Notes under the pieces: model-generated
Told to the model about the DNA's origin: nothing
The model's database searches: none
What the model saw: only the letters and a program-made list of their open reading frames with translations
Part shown: positions 2,677 through 33,563 of the stretch, one piece after another
How positions within the stretch are numbered: the first letter of the stretch is position 1
Layout of the letters: each line of letters begins with the position of its first letter
Assembly: GCA_017465155.1 (NCBI GenBank)
Contig: JAFTWV010000071.1
Span: 1-36,102, forward strand
Source: Clostridia bacterium
GTDB lineage: Bacteria; Bacillota; Clostridia; Christensenellales; Aristaeellaceae
Direction: 5' to 3'
Length of the DNA: 36,102 bases
Position numbers and translations under genes: made by a program

Positions 2677-3672
2677 ATGAAACTGTCTATTACGAAGAAG
2701 TTCAAGGCGAAGCCCCGACTGTGGTACGCGATGTCCATTGCGGCGTCGTGGGCTGGAGCGGGTTCTCTGATGAACTCCACCACGATGGCCAAGACCATCG
2801 GTGTTGTGCCGGCACTGATCTGGTGCCTGTGTAACACATTGGCTTGCATCGTATTCGGGCTTCTGATCTGGAAATTGCCCACGATCAGGCGCATCATGCG
2901 GACAAGGGTCTGCAGGATGGTGCTTGCCCTGTTCAGTATCTTTCAGATTTGGCTTGCGATGACAGCCATCAACGATGCCTGGGCGAATATCATTGGCTCT
3001 ACCGGCGCAGTGATTCTCTCGTTTGGGTTTATGCTGGCGTTTGTCATTCTTCTTTACCGTCATGGCATCATCGCCAATATCCTCACGGATAATGGCGGCA
3101 TGTATGCCATCTATGCCCTGGTCGCAGTACTGGCGACGGTGTCGCTGATTGCGTCTAAGGGCAACTTCGCCAGTCTGTCTCTCGGCCTGGAGAAAGAAAA
3201 CCTCATGGAAGGACTGTATAAGGGGCTGCTGCTTCTGCCTGGTCCTTTCACCTACCCCTACTTCTTCAAGCTCGTAGACTACAACGAGAGCAACGACGAT
3301 AGCGTAAGCCAGTGCGACATCATCCGTGCTTTCATTGGCGGCGGTATCGGCTTCGGGGTATACATGGTATTCGCTTTCTCCCTGATCTTCACCAGCATTT
3401 CGCCGGCACTCGAAGTGTGCAAGGCCATCTTGCTGACTGCGCTGGCCGCATCGACCTTGTCCTCCTTCGTTTATTCCGAATACGCAGTGTTTGGGCGTAA
3501 GCTTGGGCTGGGCATAAATCTCTTTTCCTTTGGCTTCTGGCCGCTTGTCGCCCCTCTCGGCGTGATGGGCGTGTGGACGCTTATGGCGGAGTCCCGTGTA
3601 TATCTGATCCTCGCCATGCTCGCTGCCGCGATCATCCTTCGAGTGGTCGAAAGGAAGAAGGTGTCGGAGTGA
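2677..3672 (+). CDS. Polytopic membrane protein, transporter-like
   Basis: A 331-residue protein with about nine or ten hydrophobic segments spread over nearly its whole length and a basic N-terminus (MKLSITKKFKAKPR), so it sits in the cytoplasmic membrane. The first segment, ASWAGAGSLMNSTTMAK, followed by a Gly/Asn-rich second segment, recalls the unwound first helix of LeuT-fold permeases (APC and sodium:solute symporter groups). At 331 residues it is shorter than most of those, so the assignment is tentative. Its stop overlaps the next start in GTGA, so it is translationally coupled to a PP-loop gene. That coupling suggests it serves the same module, perhaps by moving a sulfur compound or other small substrate; this is inference. 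Confidence 0.7.
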   Translation: MKLSITKKFKAKPRLWYAMSIAASWAGAGSLMNSTTMAKTIGVVPALIWCLCNTLACIVFGLLIWKLPTIRRIMRTRVCRMVLALFSIFQIWLAMTAINDAWANIIGSTGAVILSFGFMLAFVILLYRHGIIANILTDNGGMYAIYALVAVLATVSLIASKGNFASLSLGLEKENLMEGLYKGLLLLPGPFTYPYFFKLVDYNESNDDSVSQCDIIRAFIGGGIGFGVYMVFAFSLIFTSISPALEVCKAILLTALAASTLSSFVYSEYAVFGRKLGLGINLFSFGFWPLVAPLGVMGVWTLMAESRVYLILAMLAAAIILRVVERKKVSE

Positions 3673-4457
3673 GGACGATTCTCGGACGGAAACAGACCAG
3701 CACGAATGAAGACTGGCTGTATGCGGTTCGGCACATCGAAGAACTCATTTCTCCGCAGGAGGTCGCCGAGTATGCCGCGCGTGCTGTGGAGCGCATCAGA
3801 GCTGTTGCAACCGGCGCAAAAGTGGCCTACGCATGGAGCGCTGGTAAGGACAGCATTGTCCTTGGCAAGCTGTGCGAGCGGGCAGGTGTGACGTCCTGCT
3901 TCTTCGGGCATAGCGACCTGGAGTTTCCCCAGTATCTCGAATGGGCTTTTGCCAACATGCCGAACGGTTGCGAAGTGCTCAATGTTCATCTTGACCTGGA
4001 CTGGCTTGCAAAGCACCAGGATATGCTTTTTATCGATGATGCTTTCCGGCTGAACAAATGGTATGGGCTGCTGCAGCGCAGCTTCTTCACGGAGTACTAC
4101 GAGCGGCACAAGCCTGACTGCATCATAGTTGGGCATCGCATCATCGACGGAAATACCTGCGGCAAAGACCACGTTATTCGCAAGAAGTCCGGCGAAACGC
4201 GGTTTGCAGCTATCGCGGATTGGCCGCATGAAGCAATCCTTGGCTACATCCATTACAATGGGCTCGCGCTTCCGCCCACGTACGATTGGGCGGATGGGTA
4301 TGTGTTCGGACCCACGCCCTGGCCGATCTGGGGAAGGCCCAAGGATGCAGCCGATGGCTGGCGCATGATTCAGGAGCTTTACCCTGAGATCCTCCCCATT
4401 GCAGCTGAGAAGATTGAAAGCGCCCGCATCTTCCTGGAAGGGAGGGCTGGCGCGTGA
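3669..4457 (+). CDS. PP-loop (PAPS-reductase-like) protein 1
   Basis: A 262-residue cytosolic protein of the adenine-nucleotide alpha-hydrolase (PP-loop) superfamily. SAGKDS at residues 57-62 is the pyrophosphate-binding loop, and GHRIIDGN and an Arg-rich stretch follow where PAPS reductases bind substrate. I start it at GTG 3669, which overlaps the upstream stop in GTGA, with AAGGAAGAAGG as ribosome site; the in-frame codons further upstream lie inside the membrane-protein gene. Members activate a substrate with ATP or handle adenylyl-sulfate. Related proteins act in DNA phosphorothioation (DndC) and in phage loci of unknown role. It overlaps the next gene by four bases. The actual reaction cannot be read from the sequence. 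Confidence 0.82.
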   Translation: MRTILGRKQTSTNEDWLYAVRHIEELISPQEVAEYAARAVERIRAVATGAKVAYAWSAGKDSIVLGKLCERAGVTSCFFGHSDLEFPQYLEWAFANMPNGCEVLNVHLDLDWLAKHQDMLFIDDAFRLNKWYGLLQRSFFTEYYERHKPDCIIVGHRIIDGNTCGKDHVIRKKSGETRFAAIADWPHEAILGYIHYNGLALPPTYDWADGYVFGPTPWPIWGRPKDAADGWRMIQELYPEILPIAAEKIESARIFLEGRAGA

Positions 4458-5122
4458 ATATCAAACTCATGCCGCTTTCTTCTCTGCGAATCGCAGAAGT
4501 CAACGTGCGTAAGCACACCGACAAGCAGATCGCAGAATATATCCGTTCCATTGAGTCCTTTGAGCAGGTGAAGCCGATCGTCATTGACGACACCGGCGAA
4601 ATCATCTGCGGCAACGGCCTGTTCCTCGCCCTTCAGCAGATGGGCAGAACTGAGTGCTATTGCCACGTCATGGAGGGCATCACGCCCAATCAGAAGAAGA
4701 AGTTGATGCTGGCCGACAATCGAGTGTACGAGCTGGGCATCACCGACATCGACGCGTTTGAGGATATTGTCCGCAGCCTGGGTGATGATACGGACATCCC
4801 TGGCTGGGATGCAGAGCTGATCTCGGCCCTCAGCGCAACCACCGAGGAGGTTGACGACATGGTGTCCGGGTACGGGGCCTTCTCGCCCGAATACACGGAC
4901 CGAATCAAGGAAACGCCTCCTCAATCGTTCCATCCTGCGTCCGCTCCAGCAGCGCACGCTTATCCTCCCATCTCCAGCCCGTTGCAACAGGGGGTAAATC
5001 CGATCAACGCAGCACCGCCTATTCCAACCGCGGCAGCAGTGCCGCCCGCGGAAACGGCCAATCAGGGGCAAATCGAACGGTTTGTCATTTGTCCGAAATG
5101 TGGTGAGCGGATATGCCTATAA
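4454..5122 (+). CDS. ParB/sulfiredoxin-fold protein 1 with C-terminal Cys cluster
   Basis: A 222-residue protein with an N-terminal ParB-like domain (about 1-100). LRIAEVNVRKHTDKQI and IICGNGLFLAL occupy the places of the usual ParB motifs, although the catalytic-type GxHR segment is replaced by GNGLFLA. A Pro/Ala-rich linker (about 155-200) leads to CPKCGERIC at the end, a small zinc-knuckle-like cluster with only three Cys (213, 216, 221). The GTG start overlaps the upstream stop, and the 3' end overlaps the next gene by ten bases. ParB-fold proteins next to PP-loop proteins are a known phage and plasmid association (for example IbrA/IbrB). The altered motif suggests binding rather than nuclease activity. 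Confidence 0.75.
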   Translation: MNIKLMPLSSLRIAEVNVRKHTDKQIAEYIRSIESFEQVKPIVIDDTGEIICGNGLFLALQQMGRTECYCHVMEGITPNQKKKLMLADNRVYELGITDIDAFEDIVRSLGDDTDIPGWDAELISALSATTEEVDDMVSGYGAFSPEYTDRIKETPPQSFHPASAPAAHAYPPISSPLQQGVNPINAAPPIPTAAAVPPAETANQGQIERFVICPKCGERICL

Positions 5123-6228
5123 AGAGATTTGAAAGCAGCATCAATGTGCTGGATGCTGCCAAGGCTCGAATCAAAAACCTGTTTGCGTGCGGCTGCAAGG
5201 TGTATCTCTCCTTTTCTTCCGGCAAAGACAGCTTGTGTATGTCCAGCTTGGTCTATGATCTGATCGTCAGCGGCGAGATCGACAAATCGCTTCTGACGAT
5301 CGTTTTCGTTGACGAAGAAGGGCTGTATAAGTCGATGGTCGATGCTGCGTTGCGCTGGCGCAAGAAGTTCATGGGCATCGGTGTTCCGTTCCTGTGGCTG
5401 TGCCTGCCGATGAAGCAAGTCTCGGTTATCGACCATTTGTCTGCTGCGGAAAGCTGGATTACATGGGAACCTGGCAAAGAGCATCTGTGGATTCGACAGC
5501 CCCCTCCTTTCGCCATCATGCAGCATCCTATCATGCAATACCCAGGCCAGATGAATTATCAAACCTTCTGCAAAACCGCTTTTGCAGACGGGATACAGAT
5601 GATTGGTCTGCGCACATCGGAATCGCTGACGCGGCTCCAATGTGTTGCCCGGCGTGACATGGCGAAAACAGGCCCAGGCGACGCTTTCTATCCGATCTAC
5701 GATTGGAAGGACGACGATGTGTGGCTGTACATCAAGGAACGCGGCCTCGAATTCCCAGAAATCTATATGCGCCTGTATGAAGCCGGCGTGCAGCGGAGAA
5801 ATCTGCGTCTGTGCGCTTTCTTCGGTGATTGTGGTACCCAAGGCCTGCGATGGATTGCCGAAACGGACAATGAGCTGTGGCGGCGCATCGAACGGCGGGA
5901 ACCCAATGCCTATTTGGTGCTGCTCTACTGGGACAGCGAAATGTTCCGCAGATCCAGCAGCAAACGCCGCGAGCTGGAAAAGGACGAGGAACCGAAGGAC
6001 TACCGTGAAATGTGCCGCGATCTTCTGTTTGTCAATACGGACAAATACACCATCGCGCCCGACACGAAGAAACACCTTCGGAGCTGGAGGTCGCTCTTTA
6101 TCAAGACCTATGGTGTTGCAGATCAGAGCCACTACAAGAAGATGTACGAAGGAATCCTATACGGGGATCCGAAAAGCCGCATTCTTCGCATCCTGTGGAC
6201 TGACATCTTCAATGACTATAATTCGTGA
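5113..6228 (+). CDS. PP-loop protein 2, IbrA/YbdN-like (DUF3440)
   Basis: A 371-residue PAPS-reductase-family protein. SSGKDS at residues 35-40 is the PP-loop. IGLRTSES near 160 and YPIYDWKDDDVWLYIK near 192-207 match the conserved blocks of the IbrA/YbdN group, in which Trp-Lys-Asp-Asp-Asp-Val-Trp is a signature. The C-terminal ~110 residues are the basic extension (DUF3440) of that group. In E. coli the prophage gene ibrA works with ibrB to switch on other genes, and ybdN is paired with the ParB-like ybdM. Here too a ParB-like gene follows 10 bases downstream. The start ATG 5113 lies inside the upstream gene's end. The biochemical activity of the family is not settled. Confidence 0.85.
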   Translation: MPIKRFESSINVLDAAKARIKNLFACGCKVYLSFSSGKDSLCMSSLVYDLIVSGEIDKSLLTIVFVDEEGLYKSMVDAALRWRKKFMGIGVPFLWLCLPMKQVSVIDHLSAAESWITWEPGKEHLWIRQPPPFAIMQHPIMQYPGQMNYQTFCKTAFADGIQMIGLRTSESLTRLQCVARRDMAKTGPGDAFYPIYDWKDDDVWLYIKERGLEFPEIYMRLYEAGVQRRNLRLCAFFGDCGTQGLRWIAETDNELWRRIERREPNAYLVLLYWDSEMFRRSSSKRRELEKDEEPKDYREMCRDLLFVNTDKYTIAPDTKKHLRSWRSLFIKTYGVADQSHYKKMYEGILYGDPKSRILRILWTDIFNDYNS

Positions 6229-19264: not shown

Positions 19265-22200
19265 ATGCCCGCAACCTTGAAGGATTACCTTGTTGGCATA
19301 GGGTTTGAGGTAGATGAAAGCGGAGCTCAGAAAGCGGATAACACGCTCAACCAGCTCCAGCAGATCGTGAATGATCTCGGAGAGATACTCGTTCAAACCG
19401 GCGCGGCGATCAAATCCTTCCTTTCCGAATTCCGTAACGGCAACTCCCAGATGGAGGAGGCGGCCGGTGCGATTGACGATGCCGCAGAGGCGGTGGACGG
19501 TCTTTCGCAGAATGAATTGAATGCAGCGCAGACAGCAGCAGAGATGGCAGACGCTCAGGACGCCGTTTCTGCTGCTGTTTCTGCGAGTGCAGATAATCTC
19601 CAAAGGGCTTCCCGAGCTTCCGAAGATCTCTCCGCATCTAATACTGACGCAGCGACAGCCGCAGGCACCCTTGCCAATGCACAGTCGCAGGTCGGCTCCA
19701 CGGCGCAGGTCGCCGGAGGACAGGTTCAGAACCTCGGAGACAAAACCGAGTCCGCAGGCGAAGCAGCCGAACAGGCGGCGAAGGACTTCGACAGAGCCAG
19801 TCAGAAGGCGAAAATGGACGGCGCCAAGGAAGGCGCGAAGAACGTTGACAAGCTCGGCGACAAACTGAAAGATGTCACGCAGAAGCTGAAACAGGTTGTT
19901 GCAGCCGCCGCAGGATTCATCATCGGAGACATCGTCAAGAATGCGGTTATCCGCGTTGTCGCTTTTAATGAATCGCTTGCTGCCAGTGCGAAAGAGCTTG
20001 GCAAGACGATCGAAGAAACCCGCGCCTACAATGTTGCCCTGTCTGCCATGGGCAAGACGGCTGAGGAAATCGCCGCGAGTGATTCTCTGAATGAGACCTT
20101 CAATGACTTGCAAGCATTGGGACAGCAGATGGCTTTGCCCGAAGCTGCGCAAGGCCTGACCATGATAAATCGGCTGAAGGACGGATTCTTGCAGCTGAAA
20201 GTCATCGGACAGTATGCCATGCAGTGGATATACCACAAGGTGCAGACTGTCGCCGAGGGACCTCTGACGAAGTTTCATGACACAATGACCGGCCTAAAGG
20301 ACTGGTTTGCTGGCAACATCGAGAAGGTGGCCGAAGCAGTGGCTACCGGCTTCGGCTGGGTGGTGCAGATTTTCAATTCTGTTGTCACAGCTGTAAAGGG
20401 TGTTGCAACAGCCATCGGTGCTTTGCCTGGTCCTATCAAGCTGGCAGGCGCAGCAATCCTCGCAGTCATAACAATGGTCAAGTCAAGGTTCGCCCTGATT
20501 ACGGCCATTGTAACGGGGATCCTCCTGCTCGTTGACGATTTCGTAACGTACCTCGAGGGCGGCGAGAGCGTGTTCGGTGATTTCTGGGGAAAGTGCATCG
20601 AATGGGCTGAAAAGGTTGCTCCTGCCGTTCAGAAGGTGATAGGATGGATTTCCAGTTTCTTGACCACGGTATGGAACGCGACGGTAAGCGTGGTTTCGTG
20701 GCTTGATGAAATGGGCCTGATTGAACCGCTTATCGCAGGTATCGTTGCAGCGTTCGCGTTGTTCAAGGGGCTTAAGCTGGTCGATACGATCAAGAATATT
20801 GTGACGTCGTTCAAGGGATTCTCCAGCATCCTTACCCTGCTCGGAGGCAAGACGACCCTTATTATCGCCGCAATCGGCGCACTCGTCGCCGCGGGTGTAT
20901 GGCTGTATCAAAACTGGGATGTAGTCAAGGCCAAAGCAGCCGAAGTGTGGGAAGCAATCAAAGCCTGGTGCGTTGGTGCCTGGGAAGCCATCAAGGGAGC
21001 CTGGGGAAGTGTTGTTTCCTTCTTCAGCGGCATCTGGGATGGAATCGTCGCAGCGTGGTCCGGCGCGACGGACTTCTTCGTGGGTATATGGGAGGGCATC
21101 CAAAGCAATCCCATTCTATCCGGCCTGTTCAACACGCTCTCACTCCCGTTCAGAAATGCGTGGGCGTTCATCCGGGCGATCTGGAACTCCATTACCGGCT
21201 TCTTCTCTGGGATATGGGGACTTATCACGGGAGATACCACCCTCGCAGGTCTGTGGACGAGTATTTCCCAGCCTTTTGTGGATGCGTGGAATACGATCTC
21301 TGATAATTTCAGCGGCGTTGGCACGTTCTTCTCCAACCTGTGGACAACCATCACTTCCGGCGAAGGCCTGAGCGGGATCCTCTCTGCGCTTTCCGCTCCG
21401 TTCACCGGCGCATGGGATGCCATTAAAGGCGTATGGGATACGGTAACTGGTTTCTTCTCGGGAATCTGGAGCTCGATCACAGGCGATGCGGGCCTGTCAG
21501 GTACCTCTGACGCCGTGTCGTCTCCGTTCTCCACGGCCTGGTCTACCATATCCGGCCTGTTCTCCGGCGCATATACCACCGTCACGGGCTGGTTCATGGG
21601 CCTTGGCGATGGTATCTCTACCGCCGTTGGGAATGTGGCCGAATGGGCATCGAGCGCATGGACTACCATCAGCGACACGCTGTCTGGGGCAAAAGATACA
21701 GTAGCCGGATGGTTTACTGGCATCGGTACCGCAGTAGATGGCGTTGTAGGAAGCGTATCCTCCTGGGCATCAACCGCATGGAATGACATTTTGGGCAGCC
21801 TGTCTGGCGTCCTCACTTCCGTCACGGGTTGGTTTACCGGCATCGGAGATAGCGTCTCCGGCGTCGTTGGTGATGTCGCAGCGTGGGCATCCTCCGCATG
21901 GGATTCTATCAGCGGTTTCTTCTCCGGCATTGTCGGCACCGTCACAGGATGGTTCACCGGCGCTGGTACCAGCGCAAGTGACGCCGCGGGTGACGCATCT
22001 ACTTTTGCAACGACGGCATGGACTACCATCAGCGATACGCTCTCCGGGGCGTATGCTACTGTTACAGGTTGGTTCTCTGGGATTGGCTCGGGTATATCCT
22101 CAGTTGTCGGCGGCGTTGCAGATTGGGCAACAGGGGCGTGGGATACGATCTCGTCCACGTTGTCGGGCGCCGTGTCCACCGTCACGGGCTGGTTCACGGG

Positions 22201-23725
22201 TGCGGGTACCAGTGTTTCTGATGCGGTAGGCGACGTTTCAAGCTGGGCGACAACTGCCTGGTCCACCATTTCAGGCGCACTATCCGGCGCAGCGACAACT
22301 ATCTCCAGCTGGTTCTCTGGTATCGACATTTCCGCAAGCGTTTCTGCCGTATCTGATTGGGCGGCAGGTGCGTGGTCTACGATCAGCGGTGCATTGTCGT
22401 CTGCCGGAAGCACCATTGCAAGCTGGTTCAGCGGAATCGACATCAGCAGCAGCGTAGCCGTTGTGTCTGATTGGGCGGCTGGCGCGTGGTCCACTATCAG
22501 TGGAGCGTTGTCGGGGGCAGCCACATCCATTAGCGGCTTCTTCGATGGTATCAACATATCCGATAAGGTCTCGGCGGTCTCGGACTGGGCGGCTGGTGCA
22601 TGGTCTGACATACAATCTGCATTCTCTGGCGTAACGGAGTGGTTCAGTACGACCTTCTCTGGAATTGGCACGACCGTCTCCAACGCCGTGGGTGATGTAG
22701 CCACATGGGCATCTGAGACATGGGAAGGCGTCAAGTCCGCCGCTTCCTCCGTTGGCGGCTGGTTCGCTTCCTTGTTCGGGTGGGGCAGCGAAGATGATGC
22801 TGCCGCGGCCTCCGCGGAAACCAGCTCGGGCGAAGCCGGCGCGTCCTCAAAGGCGGCGTTGATCGAAGCCTTTGCGGGAACCGATACGGAAGTATCTGCC
22901 ATCTTTGCCAACATGGTGACGCTGAGCGATGCTTCGTTCCAACTGCTCGCCATGGCTGCCGAGGCAGCCAACACGGCCATTACGGCCAGCATAGCCGCAC
23001 TGAGCACGGGAGCCAACACGAGTATGGCTGCCGTTCACACCGGCGCGACGGCCCTTGGGACGTCTTTCAGTGGGACTATGGCAACCATCGGCACCAGCTC
23101 CACAACGACCGCAACGACGATTGCAACAGCCTTTAATGGCATTGTAGCAGCCGCCAAGCAGATGGCCTCTGGTGTCCAGAGCGGGATTAACTCTCTCCCG
23201 TCTACGGTTGCCTCTGTATTCTCCAGCCTTGCGAGCAGCATGACTTCGAAATTCGCCCAGGCTGCCAGTAATGTGCAGTCTCAGGTGTCAGCCATCAAAT
23301 CCAGCCTTGCAAGCATTCCTCGTTCCATTTCCGTGAGCGTAAGCGCACAGAAAGCCTTCAGCTTCGGCGGCGTTGTCGATAAAGAAACGGATGCGAAGAT
23401 CGGTGAAGATGGACGAGAATATGTCATTCCCGTAACCAAGCCGCAGCGAGCAATCGCCCTGATTCGCTCCGCGGCCTCTGAGCTTGGTATGACGGTGCAA
23501 TCGACCAGGGAGGCAGCTGCAGCCCTGGGCGGTGCAGCGGATCGGAACATCACCCCTTCCTACGCGACCAATTCCTCTACCAACAACACCACGACCAACA
23601 ACACCACCATCAACGCTCCGGCGAACATTGTTGTACATGGTACCGACGCCAAGAGTACTGCGGATAATGTTGCTCGCAATCAGGAGCGTATCGTGCTTCG
23701 GAACATCAAGTCAGCTCTTGCCTGA
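19265..23725 (+). CDS. Tail tape measure protein
   Basis: A 1486-residue protein, by far the largest, that sets tail length and is ejected on infection. The N-terminus MPATLKDYLVGIGFEVDESG leads into Ala/Gln-rich coiled coils (to about 230). Hydrophobic segments follow near 395-430, 490-510 and 530-550 (for example IKLAGAAILAVITMVK), then Trp-rich repeats (about 560-1160; separate entry). A Ser/Ala/Thr-rich region and a C-terminal part (FSFGGVVDKETDAKIGEDG ... IPVTKPQRA) follow; the latter is common in phage tape measures. No lysozyme or peptidase motif is visible. The ribosome site is GGAGGTGA. By the usual ratio of about 1.5 A per residue the tail would be roughly 200 nm, an estimate only. 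Confidence 0.92.
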   Translation: MPATLKDYLVGIGFEVDESGAQKADNTLNQLQQIVNDLGEILVQTGAAIKSFLSEFRNGNSQMEEAAGAIDDAAEAVDGLSQNELNAAQTAAEMADAQDAVSAAVSASADNLQRASRASEDLSASNTDAATAAGTLANAQSQVGSTAQVAGGQVQNLGDKTESAGEAAEQAAKDFDRASQKAKMDGAKEGAKNVDKLGDKLKDVTQKLKQVVAAAAGFIIGDIVKNAVIRVVAFNESLAASAKELGKTIEETRAYNVALSAMGKTAEEIAASDSLNETFNDLQALGQQMALPEAAQGLTMINRLKDGFLQLKVIGQYAMQWIYHKVQTVAEGPLTKFHDTMTGLKDWFAGNIEKVAEAVATGFGWVVQIFNSVVTAVKGVATAIGALPGPIKLAGAAILAVITMVKSRFALITAIVTGILLLVDDFVTYLEGGESVFGDFWGKCIEWAEKVAPAVQKVIGWISSFLTTVWNATVSVVSWLDEMGLIEPLIAGIVAAFALFKGLKLVDTIKNIVTSFKGFSSILTLLGGKTTLIIAAIGALVAAGVWLYQNWDVVKAKAAEVWEAIKAWCVGAWEAIKGAWGSVVSFFSGIWDGIVAAWSGATDFFVGIWEGIQSNPILSGLFNTLSLPFRNAWAFIRAIWNSITGFFSGIWGLITGDTTLAGLWTSISQPFVDAWNTISDNFSGVGTFFSNLWTTITSGEGLSGILSALSAPFTGAWDAIKGVWDTVTGFFSGIWSSITGDAGLSGTSDAVSSPFSTAWSTISGLFSGAYTTVTGWFMGLGDGISTAVGNVAEWASSAWTTISDTLSGAKDTVAGWFTGIGTAVDGVVGSVSSWASTAWNDILGSLSGVLTSVTGWFTGIGDSVSGVVGDVAAWASSAWDSISGFFSGIVGTVTGWFTGAGTSASDAAGDASTFATTAWTTISDTLSGAYATVTGWFSGIGSGISSVVGGVADWATGAWDTISSTLSGAVSTVTGWFTGAGTSVSDAVGDVSSWATTAWSTISGALSGAATTISSWFSGIDISASVSAVSDWAAGAWSTISGALSSAGSTIASWFSGIDISSSVAVVSDWAAGAWSTISGALSGAATSISGFFDGINISDKVSAVSDWAAGAWSDIQSAFSGVTEWFSTTFSGIGTTVSNAVGDVATWASETWEGVKSAASSVGGWFASLFGWGSEDDAAAASAETSSGEAGASSKAALIEAFAGTDTEVSAIFANMVTLSDASFQLLAMAAEAANTAITASIAALSTGANTSMAAVHTGATALGTSFSGTMATIGTSSTTTATTIATAFNGIVAAAKQMASGVQSGINSLPSTVASVFSSLASSMTSKFAQAASNVQSQVSAIKSSLASIPRSISVSVSAQKAFSFGGVVDKETDAKIGEDGREYVIPVTKPQRAIALIRSAASELGMTVQSTREAAAALGGAADRNITPSYATNSSTNNTTTNNTTINAPANIVVHGTDAKSTADNVARNQERIVLRNIKSALA
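21541..22740 (+). repeat. Tandem 114-120-bp repeats in the tape measure gene
   Basis: About ten degenerate units begin with TGG-GC(x)-...-GC(x)-TGG codons. Unit boundaries recur exactly every 120 bases at 21541, 21661, 21781, 21901, 22021, 22141 and 22261, then every 114 bases at about 22375, 22489 and 22603. Each encodes roughly W-A-x-x-A-W-x-T-I-S-x-x-L-S-G-A-x-x-T-V-T-G-W-F-x-G-I with variation. Units of 38-40 residues with two Trp positions suggest a regular helical rod in the tail lumen that could gain or lose whole units. Three longer related units (about 21000-21540) precede them. Confidence 0.85.
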
Positions 23726-29448: not shown

Positions 29449-31572
29449 ATGGCACTTACCGCGTACTTGACCACTAAAGGCTATGAGGTACTGAACCGCC
29501 TGATCGCTTCCCAGGGAACGCTGGAGATTGTGAAGGCGGAGTTGGGCGCTGGTGTCAGCACCGGCGAAGCTGCGTGCAGAGCGCGAACCTCTCTGGTCAA
29601 GAAGATCTGCGACGCCTCTCTTGCGAATGTCGCATTTACGGGTGGCGAAGCTACGATCACGGTGCAGTACATCAACACCGGCTTGGCTACTGGTTTCTTC
29701 GTGAACGAGCTGGGCGTGTACGTGAAGGACCCGCAGGGCGGCTCCAACATCCTGTACTGCTATGTGACCTTCGGCGACAATCCCGACTGGATTGCCCCCG
29801 AAAGTTCCGCGCAGTACGTCCGCACCTACGACATCAAGACCATCATTTCCAGCCTGTCCAGCATTACCATTGCTACCGCTCCGTCCACTCTGGTGAGCCG
29901 CGGCGAATTCAATGCCGTCATTGCTCCGGAGTACTCGCCCAAGGCCACGTATGTGCGTGGTGACTTCGTGCTCCATGGCGGTGCGATGCATCGGGCGAAT
30001 GTCAACATCACTACGCCGGAAGCGTTCAATCCGCTGCACTGGGACGCGAACAATGTCGCCTACTATCTGGCGAGGGATGAATACATCACCACGCAGCCGC
30101 GCTTCGGCGTGCAGGGTGTGGGCGGCTCCAAGGCTGCTCTGACTCGCCTGTGGGACAGCGTAGGCAAGACTGCTACGCCTGGTACCGACACGGTTGAGGC
30201 CCACTCCGATTTCGACGGTTATGCCCCCTTCAACCGCCGCAAGTGCGTTGGCAACTGGTCCGCAGGCGTCGATCGTGCAGTCTTCAATGTCAACGCCTAT
30301 TACGGCGATGCAGACTATGCAGAGGATGGCTCCATGGGTAACTATGTGGCCGTTGAGATCGAGCCCTTCTTCTACATCGAGGACGGTGACATCATCGGCG
30401 TGTCCGCCCAGCAGTTCCCGGGTTGGAATATCCATCCCGTCTGTGTTGATCGTGATGACAATATCCGCAGCAAGACCTACATCCCGTGCTATCCCATTAC
30501 GCTGGACGAGAACGGTGATGCCGTCTCTCTGCCTGGTGGCCATAATGTGTACGGCAGCTATAAGGCGTTGCGTGACTTTGCCAAGACCTACGGTGAGGGC
30601 GTTGTCAGCGACTACGCCATCATCGAACCTACGGCTGTCGATCACTACGAATGGCTGCTGGAAACCATTGAGTTTGCCACGCAGAACATTCAGAATGTGA
30701 TGCAGGGTGCAAGCACGCTGCCTTACAGCGAATCTCATAAAATCGTTGCGGCGCCGGCTGCGAATCAGATCGTCCTCGCGAAGGCGCACGGACAGTCCTT
30801 CGTGGTGGGGCAGACGATTCAGATGTGCGATACTCCTTGGAGCACGCCGTCCAATAGCTCTGCGTACAATAAGGTTACTGCTCTGGACCTGTGCGACGCT
30901 GCAGGCACTCCTACCTCCAACGGCGAATACATGCGGATTACCTATGACGGAGAAGACCGCAGCGGTAGCGTGGTCATCGGCACCACCCTGGCTGCTTCCA
31001 GGCCTTGGCTCGCCGGTACCTGCGTAGGCGCCATTGACGGCATCGGAGCGGTTCTCGGCCATACCGGCTCTCCCATCAGCAACACCAGCGGTAAGTATCC
31101 CATGATGTACCGCTGGCGCGAGAACACCTATGGCAATCAGTTCATGACGGCTGGTGACCTGTTCGACGTCCGCGTGGAAGATGCCACGGATGTTTACCAT
31201 GTCGAATGGTATCACCTGCCCGACCAGACCCGCTTCTCTACCAATCCGGGTGTGGCTGATCTGACCGCGGAGAATGGCTTTGTGAAGCTGAAGACCATCA
31301 CGCCTTCCAGCGAATACAGGGACGGCTATGTCAAGAAGCTGGGATTCGATGATGAATATCCGACTGTCAAGGTGCCGGTTATGACAGGCGGTAGCTCGAC
31401 GACCTACTACTGCGACTGGGCGTACCTCGTCAGCGATTCCGTGGTCCGCTCGGTGCGGCGGCGCGGCAGCGTGAACTATGGCGCGTACGGCGGTCTGCGC
31501 TACTTCAACGCGTCCTCCGCGCCCTCGTACGCGACCTGGGCCTCCGGCGCCGGTCTTTTCTTTGTCCAGTAA
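29449..31572 (+). CDS. Tail fibre / receptor-binding protein with DGR-variable C-terminus
   Basis: A 707-residue fibre. Residues 1-140 (LTTKGYEVLNRLIASQGTLEIVKAELGAG, FFVNELGVYVKDPQGG) are a DUF3751-type, tail-collar-like attachment domain. A short chitin-binding-like block follows (YSPKATYVRGDFVLHGGAMHRAN, ending LHWDANN). The rest is a large beta-rich domain, ending in residues 658-704, the DGR variable region. The end, RRRGSVNYGAYGGLRYFNAS, resembles C-type-lectin-fold targets, in which such residues line the ligand face. Variable positions by template comparison are 662, 664, 674, 677, 680, 681, 689, 690, 694, 696, 698, 699, 703 and 704. It would bind the host receptor and change specificity. 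Confidence 0.9.
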   Translation: MALTAYLTTKGYEVLNRLIASQGTLEIVKAELGAGVSTGEAACRARTSLVKKICDASLANVAFTGGEATITVQYINTGLATGFFVNELGVYVKDPQGGSNILYCYVTFGDNPDWIAPESSAQYVRTYDIKTIISSLSSITIATAPSTLVSRGEFNAVIAPEYSPKATYVRGDFVLHGGAMHRANVNITTPEAFNPLHWDANNVAYYLARDEYITTQPRFGVQGVGGSKAALTRLWDSVGKTATPGTDTVEAHSDFDGYAPFNRRKCVGNWSAGVDRAVFNVNAYYGDADYAEDGSMGNYVAVEIEPFFYIEDGDIIGVSAQQFPGWNIHPVCVDRDDNIRSKTYIPCYPITLDENGDAVSLPGGHNVYGSYKALRDFAKTYGEGVVSDYAIIEPTAVDHYEWLLETIEFATQNIQNVMQGASTLPYSESHKIVAAPAANQIVLAKAHGQSFVVGQTIQMCDTPWSTPSNSSAYNKVTALDLCDAAGTPTSNGEYMRITYDGEDRSGSVVIGTTLAASRPWLAGTCVGAIDGIGAVLGHTGSPISNTSGKYPMMYRWRENTYGNQFMTAGDLFDVRVEDATDVYHVEWYHLPDQTRFSTNPGVADLTAENGFVKLKTITPSSEYRDGYVKKLGFDDEYPTVKVPVMTGGSSTTYYCDWAYLVSDSVVRSVRRRGSVNYGAYGGLRYFNASSAPSYATWASGAGLFFVQ
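31420..31559 (+). repeat. DGR variable repeat (VR)
   Basis: 140 bases at the 3' end of the fibre gene align without gaps to 31769-31908 (offset 349). By hand count there are 18 differences, each at a template adenine (A to T, C or G), and none at the other ~109 positions. The match ends at 31559/31908, where the sequences diverge. The GC-only run CCGGCGCCGG (31544-31553) near the 3' end is the likely initiation-of-mutagenic-homing region. Confidence 0.95.
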
Positions 31573-31581
31573 GGGGTTGAA

Positions 31582-31594
31582 TGCGCGAAGCGCA
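31582..31594 (+). repeat. GCGAAGC-type hairpin downstream of VR
   Basis: TGCGC-GAA-GCGCA lies 22 bases after the VR end and 10 after the fibre stop. It contains GCGAAGC, known as an exceptionally stable DNA mini-hairpin. In the Bordetella phage DGR a hairpin/cruciform at this place is needed for efficient retrohoming. A second small one, GCGC-GTAA-GCGC, is at 31625-31636. Confidence 0.65.
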
Positions 31595-31597
31595 GAA

Positions 31598-31616
31598 GGG
31601 GGCCGCAGCCCCCTTT
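31598..31616 (+). terminator. Hairpin terminator after the fibre gene
   Basis: GGGGGC (31598-31603) pairs with GCCCCC (31608-31613) around CGCA, then TTT. The T run is short, so some read-through is likely. Confidence 0.55.
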
Positions 31617-31647
31617 AATCCCTTGCGCGTAAGCGCCGGCGCGATTT

Positions 31648-31676
31648 TTGAAAAAGGCATATCGTAATCCGATATT
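31648..31676 (+). promoter_or_regulatory. Candidate TR/RT promoter with overlapping palindrome
   Basis: TTGAAA (31648-31653), a 17-base spacer and GATATT (31671-31676) could start the template/RT transcript near 31683. ATATCG (31659-31664) and CGATAT (31670-31675) form an inverted repeat covering the spacer and the -10 box, a possible operator. TATAAT at 31713-31718 is another -10 but has no -35. Confidence 0.4.
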
Positions 31677-31768
31677 TCCTATCAAAACGCGGCGGGTGGA
31701 GAAGAAAATAGATATAATCTATCATAATGGGATTGCGGTGTGCTCTTTGTGCCGGGTTTTCGGTTTTT

Positions 31769-31908
31769 GCGTACCTCGTCAACGATAACGTGGTCCGCTC
31801 GGTGCGGCGGCGCGGCAACGTGAACAATGGCGCGAACGACGGTCTGCGCTACTTCAACGCGAACAACGCGCCCTCGAACGCGAACTGGAACTACGGCGCC
31901 GGTCATTA
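31769..31908 (+). repeat. DGR template repeat (TR)
   Basis: This is the intact donor of VR, lying in non-coding DNA 164 bases before the RT gene. It has 31 adenines in the aligned span, concentrated in AAC triplets. In the VR frame each adenine lies in codon position one or two of a codon ending in C or T, so adenine mutagenesis cannot create a stop codon. It lies inside a 75-codon open frame (31727-31954) that is probably not translated. Confidence 0.95.
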
Positions 31909-32071
31909 TCCCTCGCCCAGTCTCATACAGACGCTGATGCGACATCCTGTATGATGGTCTCTGAATTTGCAATCTCCCTTTGCACACCCTTTTCCATGGT
32001 TCGTGAGAACTGAAATACGCTCGACTGGAACGGCTTAGTAAGTGATTGAAACGCCGTGAGGGCAAGAAAAG

Positions 32072-33367
32072 ATGAAAAGAGTCGGGAATTTGTGGGGCGA
32101 TCTTTGCAGCAAGCAAAACGCCATCCAAGCAATCTATGAAGGTACGGAGCACAAGCGGCAAGACCGGCAGGTGCGACGCACCCTCGGCTATACTGACGAC
32201 GACCCGAAGCATCAGGGCAAGCTGGATCCTGAAAAGGTGTCCGCCTATGCGGAGCGTCAGATCGAAAAGCTGGCAAACGGCTGGATACCGTCGCCCATGC
32301 GGCACATGACGATTCGTCCCCCGTTCGGCAAGAGCCGAGAGATTGACTGTCCAACACTATCCGACCATATCATACACTGGATGCTTATACGTGCCATCAA
32401 ACCAATCATCATGCGCGGTATGTATAAGCATTCCTGTGGATCTATCCCAGATCGCGGCATCGACAGCGCACGGAGCGCTGTCGAACGCTGGGTACAGCAC
32501 GATGACCGCGCGAAGTATTTCGTCAAGCTTGATGTTCGGAAGTTCTATCCGAACATTGACCAGGACAGACTGGTTGATCTTTTCAAGCTGGTAATCAAAG
32601 ACCCCCTCGTGATCGAGCTGATCGACAAGGTGGCACATGCACTCCCGAAGGGACTGCCGATTGGAGCCTATACCTCGCAATGGTTTGCGAATTTCTATCT
32701 TCAACAATTAGATCATCACATTGTGCAGGACCTGTTCAAATCACGGCGCGGTAAGAGAATCAATCTTGTCGCGCACTATTGTCGTTACGCTGATGACCTT
32801 CTGCTGATTGGTTCCAGCAAACGCGATTTGGAAAAGTCGGTACGTGATATCATTTCCTTTGCTGCCGGGCACAGCCGCCTGGAGATCAAGGAGTGTTGGG
32901 AGATCAAAGCCATTGCCAAGGATGTACACGACATCGGTCCGCATGTTGCACCTATTGACTTTGTCGGGTACCGCTTCTATCGTGATCACACGGAAATACG
33001 AGGCGGCATCTTCCTCCATACAACGAGGATCGCTGCCCGAATAGTAAAGCGGCTTGAATCGCAGTCGGTTGTCTTGCTTCACGATGCACAATCCATCGTA
33101 AGTCTGCATGGGTGGTTTGAGCACGCAGACAGCGAGTATTTCTTTGAGAACTACATCTATAATCGAATCAGTATCAAATTCATGCAAGAGGTGATCAGTT
33201 ATGCGAGTAAGAACGGAATTGTCGGCGATGCCGCCCGCATTTTCTGTGGTGAAAGAGGGCCGGATGGCAAGTATCACATTCTATACGGACGTTCAGGAGG
33301 TCAAACGCGAAGAGTCTACCGTGTGGACTGCAGAAGCGTGGGAGATGGACTGCGTCTGGATGGATAA
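32072..33367 (+). CDS. DGR reverse transcriptase
   Basis: A 431-residue reverse transcriptase. Motifs in order: fingers IRPPFGKSREIDCPTLSDHIIHWML (about 79-103), active-site motif A in YFVKLDVRKFYPNID (about 149-163), and GLPIGAYTSQWFANF (about 194-208), where the SQ replaces the QG...SP of group II intron enzymes and marks the DGR class. YCRYADDLLLI (about 229-239) holds the catalytic Asp pair, and FVGYRF (about 290-295) follows. No maturase or endonuclease domain is present. It starts at ATG 32072 behind a weak GTGAGGG. Its 3' end overlaps the next gene by about 104 bases. It would copy TR with adenine errors. Confidence 0.93.
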   Translation: MKRVGNLWGDLCSKQNAIQAIYEGTEHKRQDRQVRRTLGYTDDDPKHQGKLDPEKVSAYAERQIEKLANGWIPSPMRHMTIRPPFGKSREIDCPTLSDHIIHWMLIRAIKPIIMRGMYKHSCGSIPDRGIDSARSAVERWVQHDDRAKYFVKLDVRKFYPNIDQDRLVDLFKLVIKDPLVIELIDKVAHALPKGLPIGAYTSQWFANFYLQQLDHHIVQDLFKSRRGKRINLVAHYCRYADDLLLIGSSKRDLEKSVRDIISFAAGHSRLEIKECWEIKAIAKDVHDIGPHVAPIDFVGYRFYRDHTEIRGGIFLHTTRIAARIVKRLESQSVVLLHDAQSIVSLHGWFEHADSEYFFENYIYNRISIKFMQEVISYASKNGIVGDAARIFCGERGPDGKYHILYGRSGGQTRRVYRVDCRSVGDGLRLDG

Positions 33368-33563
33368 CCTTGAATCCCGCATCGCCGCAAACCCCGCGCT
33401 GTGGCTTGCCAAGGTGAAGAGCGTTACCGCATCGGAAGAAGCCGCGGCGGAACTGGAACGGCTGAAGGTGACCGCAACGGATGATGCTGTGTGCGAACTG
33501 GCGGAGCTGGTGGCGTACCTGACCGAAGCCGTTGTTGAACTCTCTACTATGATTACTGCGTAA
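33264..33563 (+). CDS. Small acidic helical protein
   Basis: A 99-residue acidic protein; ATG 33264 has GAAAGAGGG upstream. An N-terminal part with five Trp in its first half (STVWTAEAWEMDCVWMDNLESRI) is followed by Glu/Ala-rich helices (EEAAAELERLKVTATDDAVCELAELVAYLTEAVVEL). It overlaps the RT gene by about 104 bases in another frame. Avd accessory proteins of DGRs are small helical bundles but are basic, so this acidic protein is a poor fit. It more likely belongs with the following tail genes. Family not recognised. Confidence 0.65.
   Translation: MASITFYTDVQEVKREESTVWTAEAWEMDCVWMDNLESRIAANPALWLAKVKSVTASEEAAAELERLKVTATDDAVCELAELVAYLTEAVVELSTMITA

Follow-up and report, generated by a model that had tools for sequence, protein, structure and literature searches.

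A 36,102-nucleotide contig of a Clostridia bacterium (JAFTWV010000071.1, analyzed over its entire 36.1 kb and hereafter called the window) carries, at the end of a tail fibre gene, what is almost certainly a genuine diversity-generating retroelement (DGR), belonging to a phage or prophage with a contractile tail. In itself this DGR adds another example to a well-known kind, and is ordinary and probably working; the useful part is the surrounding lineage, which is of interest as an Avd-less lineage with an RNA of its own, and for the split template found in two of its members. We propose tentatively, with slightly less than even confidence, that retrohoming throughout this lineage would proceed without Avd, with an RT-18-type spacer RNA, tied to the TR 3' flank by a long-range helix, in the role that Avd plus spacer have in BPP-1, and that the template of the two relatives is split by a spliced group I-like intron.

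The variable repeat (VR, 31420-31559) and the template repeat (TR, 31769-31908) lie at an offset of 349 and align over 140 positions with 18 mismatches, all of which fall on the 31 adenines of the TR (A to T, 8; A to C, 6; A to G, 4), and the non-adenine positions are identical (109/109). If the changes were placed randomly over the 140 positions, all 18 would fall on these adenines with a probability of 1e-14. These are the coordinates, length and differences that an initial annotation, made from the sequence alone, had given, and a recount reproduced them exactly. The VR is read through by the frame of the target gene, and 18 of the 46 TR codons contain an adenine, with no stop codon reachable from any of them, which leaves about 5e17 protein sequences open to the VR through TR adenines. 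No further TR copy or second VR was found within the window, where the next best alignment matched at 56 of 109 non-adenine positions, or beyond the VR and TR sites in the genome bin of the window (G000; 2.8 Mb, 68.5% complete).

The reverse transcriptase (RT) open reading frame (ORF) at 32072-33367 is intact and contains the motifs IGAYTSQ and YADD; [I/L]GxxxSQ is the motif rule of DGR-clade RTs. In a comparison of an RT-family profile with the PDB, the best chain was 8ub7 (E 6e-51), which we take to be the RT of phage BPP-1 (bRT or Brt), whose length of 328 aa it has, and the best group II intron RT reached 1.6e-32. In a tree of 107 of 122 RTs, from which duplicates and short sequences had been removed, the window RT sits among RTs having adenine-specific VR/TR pairs. 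The earlier assignment to the SQ-type DGR enzymes is borne out by motif, tree and PDB profile.

Related loci show the same restriction of change to adenines. Contigs L251/L252 and L253 have one TR in common and are 98.3% identical over 2458 bp, and their VRs differ at 16 of 141 positions, every one of them a TR adenine (chance 1e-12). L250 and L253 are 92.3% identical over 2458 bp, with a TR that is identical over the compared stretch and 18 VR differences in 92 compared positions, all at TR adenines. A comparison of the L246 and L247 VRs was out of register and was not used. These relatives give indirect support to the adenine-specific retrohoming claimed initially, and VR differences spread over non-adenine sites were not seen in L251/L252 versus L253. 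The script that recovered the BPP-1 pair as a positive control detected adenine-only VR/TR pairs in 64 of 80 and 71 of 98 fetched RT-relative loci, the second set being L245-L342, three of which (L256, L257 and L266) repeat earlier contigs. Separately, we observed that the TR of L248 looks like the product of a transfer in the reverse direction, from VR to TR.

The spacer between template and reverse transcriptase

The spacer between the TR and the RT gene is, by covariation and model matches, a structured RNA of a divergent RT-18 type (RF03021). It has the helix layout of RT-18 RNA, its UAGUA and GAAA segments and its site just upstream of the RT start, and differs from it in scoring under the Rfam cut-off; the Rfam name is silent on DGRs. 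Our own covariance model, R1, gave the window spacer 64 bits (E 5.7e-13), the window being one of the R1 training rows. Among 51 loci not used in training, 31 had an R1 match at E<=0.001, as had 79 of 95 other loci scanned as a check (L245-L342 without the three repeats only), some of the matched loci being near-copies of training rows. At the same threshold R1 was absent from the Avd-less loci L002-L004, L007, L011, L016 and L036. The RF03021 gathering score was passed by 15 of the 16 Avd-less loci scanned (L038 fails) and by none of four Avd-bearing controls, among which BPP-1 matches Phage_DGR (RF03022) and three match neither family.

Four helices covary across an alignment of 32 spacers (A2) that includes members over the RF03021 cut-off. 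Over its 17 pairs, 84.6% of cells are paired, compared with 63.3% in shuffled and at most 46.8% in slid alignments, and double-change cells number 119 versus 40.7. These figures favor the structure because the A2 rows were picked for similar length and look, as 32 of 64 spacers with a motif match (14 of 78 had no motif). In the window and its near relatives a further, long-range helix ties the RT-18 part to the 3' flank of the TR (CCAGUC/GACUGG in the window, CCAGUG/CACUGG in L047). Because this helix and helix C cross, the two would form a pseudoknot or alternative structures; taken together, 96.8% of their cells are paired over 12 distinct rows, with 0 of 500 shuffles as high. A literature search on RF03021 and RF03022 found neither among the matches listed, only "RT-18" in other senses, and the original RT-18 paper may already connect this RNA with DGRs.

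Presence of the spacer RNA and presence of Avd divide the RT tree. A branch with 100/99 support separates 66 rows with spacer RNA from five rows labelled as Avd-bearing; 28 of the 36 unlabelled rows lie on the spacer-RNA side, and the Avd side also holds L014 and L033, whose Avd came to light after labelling. Avd was searched as PF22296 in 23 records and exceeded the cut-off in four of them (BPP-1, G024, G067 and G001), with weak matches in G187 and G100 and no Avd in the window's bin. The same family gave no match in 80 viral records, many of them fragments, in a search whose controls gave no match either. A small profile built from five of the Avd proteins and run on locus stretches only found ORFs in nine loci (L014, L021, L025, L028, L032, L033, L037, L328 and L337; L042 and L043 are repeats among the Avd-bearing loci). 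It found no Avd in the window or in the scanned stretches of 148 sources with spacer RNA at E<=0.001, which are made up of 9/39, 60/80 and 79/95 loci in three scans. Of the element called complete in the initial annotation, VR, TR, target and intact RT are present, and no Avd was recognized.

Compared with the BPP-1 system (Mtd, Avd, Brt), the window likewise has an adenine-specific VR/TR pair, a VR at the 3' end of a tail protein gene, the order VR-TR-RT, a hairpin downstream of the VR and a structured TR-RT spacer. It differs in an RT that is 25% identical, in the lack of an Avd found in the window, in a spacer that resembles RT-18 and not the RF03022 of BPP-1, and in a hairpin loop that is CGCA, not GAAA. 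A section of PMC12875486 describes the BPP-1 spacer as recruiting bRT-Avd and priming complementary DNA (cDNA). By analogy, the window RNA would play a similar role, cDNA priming included. The TR would be transcribed along with the downstream spacer, which would fold into the RT-18-type RNA immediately before the RT gene; the RT, which we infer to work without Avd, would misincorporate opposite adenines while copying the TR, and the resulting cDNA would replace the VR and alter the fibre tip, with 18 variable codons and no stops possible.

Faecalibacterium phage FP_Epona (MG711462) shares with the window a contractile tail module, the gene order fibre, RT, hypothetical, XkdX with a TR between fibre and RT, and the lack of Avd. 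Its RT differs, being 28% identical to that of the window, and belongs to a clade of 13 rows without an R1 match at E<=0.001 (L039, L097, L098, L099, L102, L106, L107, L108, L110, L114, L115, L117 and L122), nested among the RT-18 DGRs. Several spacers of this clade have a different common segment (AAAGCGGUCGCACC), which is perhaps a further RNA class.

Split templates in two relatives

Among the closest known systems are the IMG/VR contigs L044, L047 and L048, with RTs 58-63% identical to that of the window, and L125, whose RT is 95% identical to that of L044. In all four the fibre is a homologue of the window fibre's C-terminal part, and the three hairpins and the spacer are those of the window. 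L044 and L125 differ from the window in that their TR is split by an intron-like insert. In L044 the TR is interrupted by 285 nt (3486-3770) and the VR is without the insert; a pattern scan found the identical insert at the same TR site in L125 (1547-1831). The two are viral contigs from different metagenomes, and their VRs are continuous and different. Within each contig, VR and TR disagree solely at adenines (21 sites in L044, 18 in L125). Between the contigs, the VRs show 23 differences in 140 positions, 22 of them at TR adenines and lying on both sides of the join. The single non-adenine difference is at TR position 69 (0-based), where each VR matches the letter of its own TR. VRs free of the insert, with differences at adenines to either side of the join, look as if the template RNA had been spliced before copying, and from these sequences we consider such splicing in L044 and L125 likely.

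The insert belongs to a family found in at least 120 viral stretches; among the 120 matches listed, only L044 and L125 adjoin a DGR RT in the scanned stretches. A relative splits the DnaB-like helicase of Bacillus phage KLEB27-3 (OM634661, L126, about 907-1590) at the P-loop. This stretch is unannotated and has no RF00028 match, and its removal would rejoin the P-loop halves NVG and KSG, as judged by eye. A fold was computed from 58 of the 76 introns extracted; at least two Watson-Crick types occur in 38 of its 45 predicted pairs, and L044 retains 34 of the 45. Group I introns have a characteristic core and end rules, the exon ending in U and the intron in G, and by eye the insert borders have these letters. 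On our reading of the core by these rules, the insert would be a group I-like phage intron. Rfam RF00028 gave no match to the L044/L125 insert at E<=10, and among 20 family stretches it gave three matches, all away from the pattern of the family. The insert was found in 0 of 300 genomes of the bacterial family, in a search without a positive control.

A recent exchange offers another account of the split template. From the TR to the first 500 nt of the RT gene, L044 and L125 show three differences in 1091 positions, in contrast to fibres and RT ends that differ by 18% and 13%. This near-identity amid divergent flanks suggests that the insert may have been exchanged recently, and an exchange that started in the few bases separating TR position 69 from the insert could be younger than the VRs. 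No paper was matched by a literature search for an intron inside a TR; of six papers that contain both terms, the one consulted uses them in unrelated contexts. Guo et al. reportedly carried out an intron-marker experiment in 2008, of which the split TR would be the natural version.

Alternatives to retrohoming without Avd

Several further observations weigh against the overall reading of the window element as a DGR with an RT-18-type spacer RNA. The window spacer reaches only 26.6 bits (E 0.029) with RF03021, under the gathering score of 41.3. No adenine-only pair was detected in 16 of 80 and 27 of 98 loci, several of them cut contigs; the L255 pair has a C/T mismatch at a non-adenine site, and the L248 TR (about 3690-3840) carries VR-like letters, with seven mismatches over 151 nt. 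Activity in this very phage is predicted from sequence, and the C-type lectin fold of its fibre tip is suggested by weak profile matches to TaqVP and Mtd.

An ordinary, mutationally diverged repeat beside an RT of a group II intron or defence system would fit the distant matches of the window RT to group II, retron and DRT models. The adenine-only pattern (chance 1e-14) contradicts this explanation, all eight NCBIfam matches of the RT lie far under their cut-offs and its best profile match is a DGR RT, so that we regard it as vanishingly improbable. A decayed DGR, whose adenine-specific differences are old and which is dead for lack of Avd, would agree with the absence of Avd from the window and from its bin, incomplete as the latter is, and with the finding, in the part of PMC12875486 concerned, that Avd is required in the reconstituted BPP-1 DGR and that its inactivation abolished repair. 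Decay is nevertheless very unlikely, as the RT ORF is intact, decay would erode the complete non-adenine agreement of VR and TR, and related contigs with no Avd recognized in the scanned stretch show adenine-only VR change with the TR unchanged; the RT of L044/L125, in addition, has a dN of 0.029 and a dS of 0.318.

Provision of Avd in trans, by the host or another element, deserves more weight but is still unlikely. Avd passes the cut-off in the genomes behind the RT-18-type loci L299 and L338, and weaker matches occur in the genomes of L313, L286 and L278, none of these five loci itself holding Avd. Against this, there was no match in G000 or in the genomes behind L272, L285, L287, L291, L293, L301, L315 and L317 (completeness unstated), and one RT clade is without adjacent Avd and has its own RNA. 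Avd-less phage DGRs, including that of Epona, are already published: in the portion of PMC5883640 on Faecalibacterium phages, Avd is reported only in Mushu and Lagaffe, and for the others that portion merely suggests that another small protein might stand in for Avd.

Target gene, hairpins and phage surroundings

The features of the element are collected in Table 1. Homologues of the window fibre protein occur in L044, L046-L048 and L125. An alignment of fibre ends (A5) comprises 22 of 23 listed ends, with L055 omitted. A profile of the last 208 aa matched the VR part of TaqVP (5vf4, E 1.5e-4) and, weakly, that of Mtd (1yu4, E 0.04). A Pfam search with these 208 residues matched no family, and the AlphaFold model of the tip, with a mean pLDDT of 52, was too poor for use. 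The VR-bearing end is presumably the receptor-binding tip. Among the hairpins, H2 is the putative DGR target hairpin, and its CGCA loop departs from the published consensus for the BPP-1-type hairpin, a GRNA loop in a GC-rich hairpin after the VR (as given in a part of PMC3240598). The loop was also considered as an indicator of whether Avd is present, with GAAA in L025 and L037 and, by eye, GATA in L028 and L032, and was rejected on too few cases. A promoter consensus scan did not select the hexamer at 31713-31718.

Table 1. Positions of the DGR components and associated elements in the window.
Feature	Position	Strand	Basis
Target gene, 707-aa tail fibre protein, VR at extreme C-terminus	29449..31572	+	PHROG 5302 tail protein, PHROG 7037 tail fiber protein
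Variable repeat (VR)	31420..31559	+	18 differences from TR, each at a TR adenine
Hairpin H1 (TGCGC-GAA-GCGCA), downstream of VR	31582..31594	+	Arms covary: CGGC-GAA-GCCG in L001, L047, L125; missing in L046
Hairpin H2, 8-bp stem, CGCA loop, putative DGR target hairpin/cruciform	31596..31615	+	Same loop in L001, L008, L012
Hairpin H3 (GCGC-GTAA-GCGC)	31625..31636	+	6/7 aligned sequences, by eye; CCGC-GTAA-GCGG in L048; missing in L046
TATAAT, candidate -10 box for template RNA promoter	31713..31718	+	TATAAT/TATACT at same place in 6/7 aligned sequences, not L046, by eye
Conserved leader GGGATTG, upstream of TR	31729..31735	+	Identical in 7/7 aligned sequences
Template repeat (TR)	31769..31908	+	Pairwise comparison with VR
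TR-RT spacer, structured RNA; long-range helix 31917-31922/32023-32028	31909..32071	+	96.8% of cells paired, 0/500 shuffles as high
RT-18-type RNA; helix A 31998-32011, C 32019-32022/32060-32063, B 32030-32034/32053-32057	31977..32074	+	RF03021 and covariation
DGR reverse transcriptase, 431 aa	32072..33367	+	Pfam RVT_1; PHROG 1423 E 7e-79; PDB profile; tree

Gene products assigned in the window comprise an integrase, a terminase, a portal, a major head protein, a tail sheath, a tape measure, and baseplate hub and J-like proteins, together with the fibre and the RT. A small ORF, an ORF of 39 aa in the position of XkdX and a SpoIID/SH3 protein are also encoded; the sheath, baseplate J and tape measure genes agree with the contractile tail proposed initially. 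The small ORF after the RT (33264-33563) was tried as an Avd substitute and rejected, having no Pfam match over the cut-off and no PHROG match. FP_Epona, LBR48 and vir215 also have a gene at its position, and that of vir215 matches a tail assembly chaperone below threshold; with these counterparts the small ORF looks like part of the tail module. We also observed a PAPS reductase-like gene (PHROG 2302) at 5113-6228 and an Rfam tRNA match (35.2 bits, 1850-1910) directly after the integrase gene, where ARAGORN found no tRNA. The 1486-aa tape measure protein (19265-23725) has a Pfam match to the baculovirus PEP C-terminus (38.9 bits, cut-off 38) that is probably a low-complexity artefact.

According to PMC12875486, the reconstituted BPP-1 DGR depends on Avd, yet there are other phage DGRs in which it is missing. 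With a conserved RNA at the TR-RT position, the Avd question could be put to the test using purified RT and RNA. If true, the split template would demonstrate, from natural sequences alone, that spliced RNA is the template of the cDNA.

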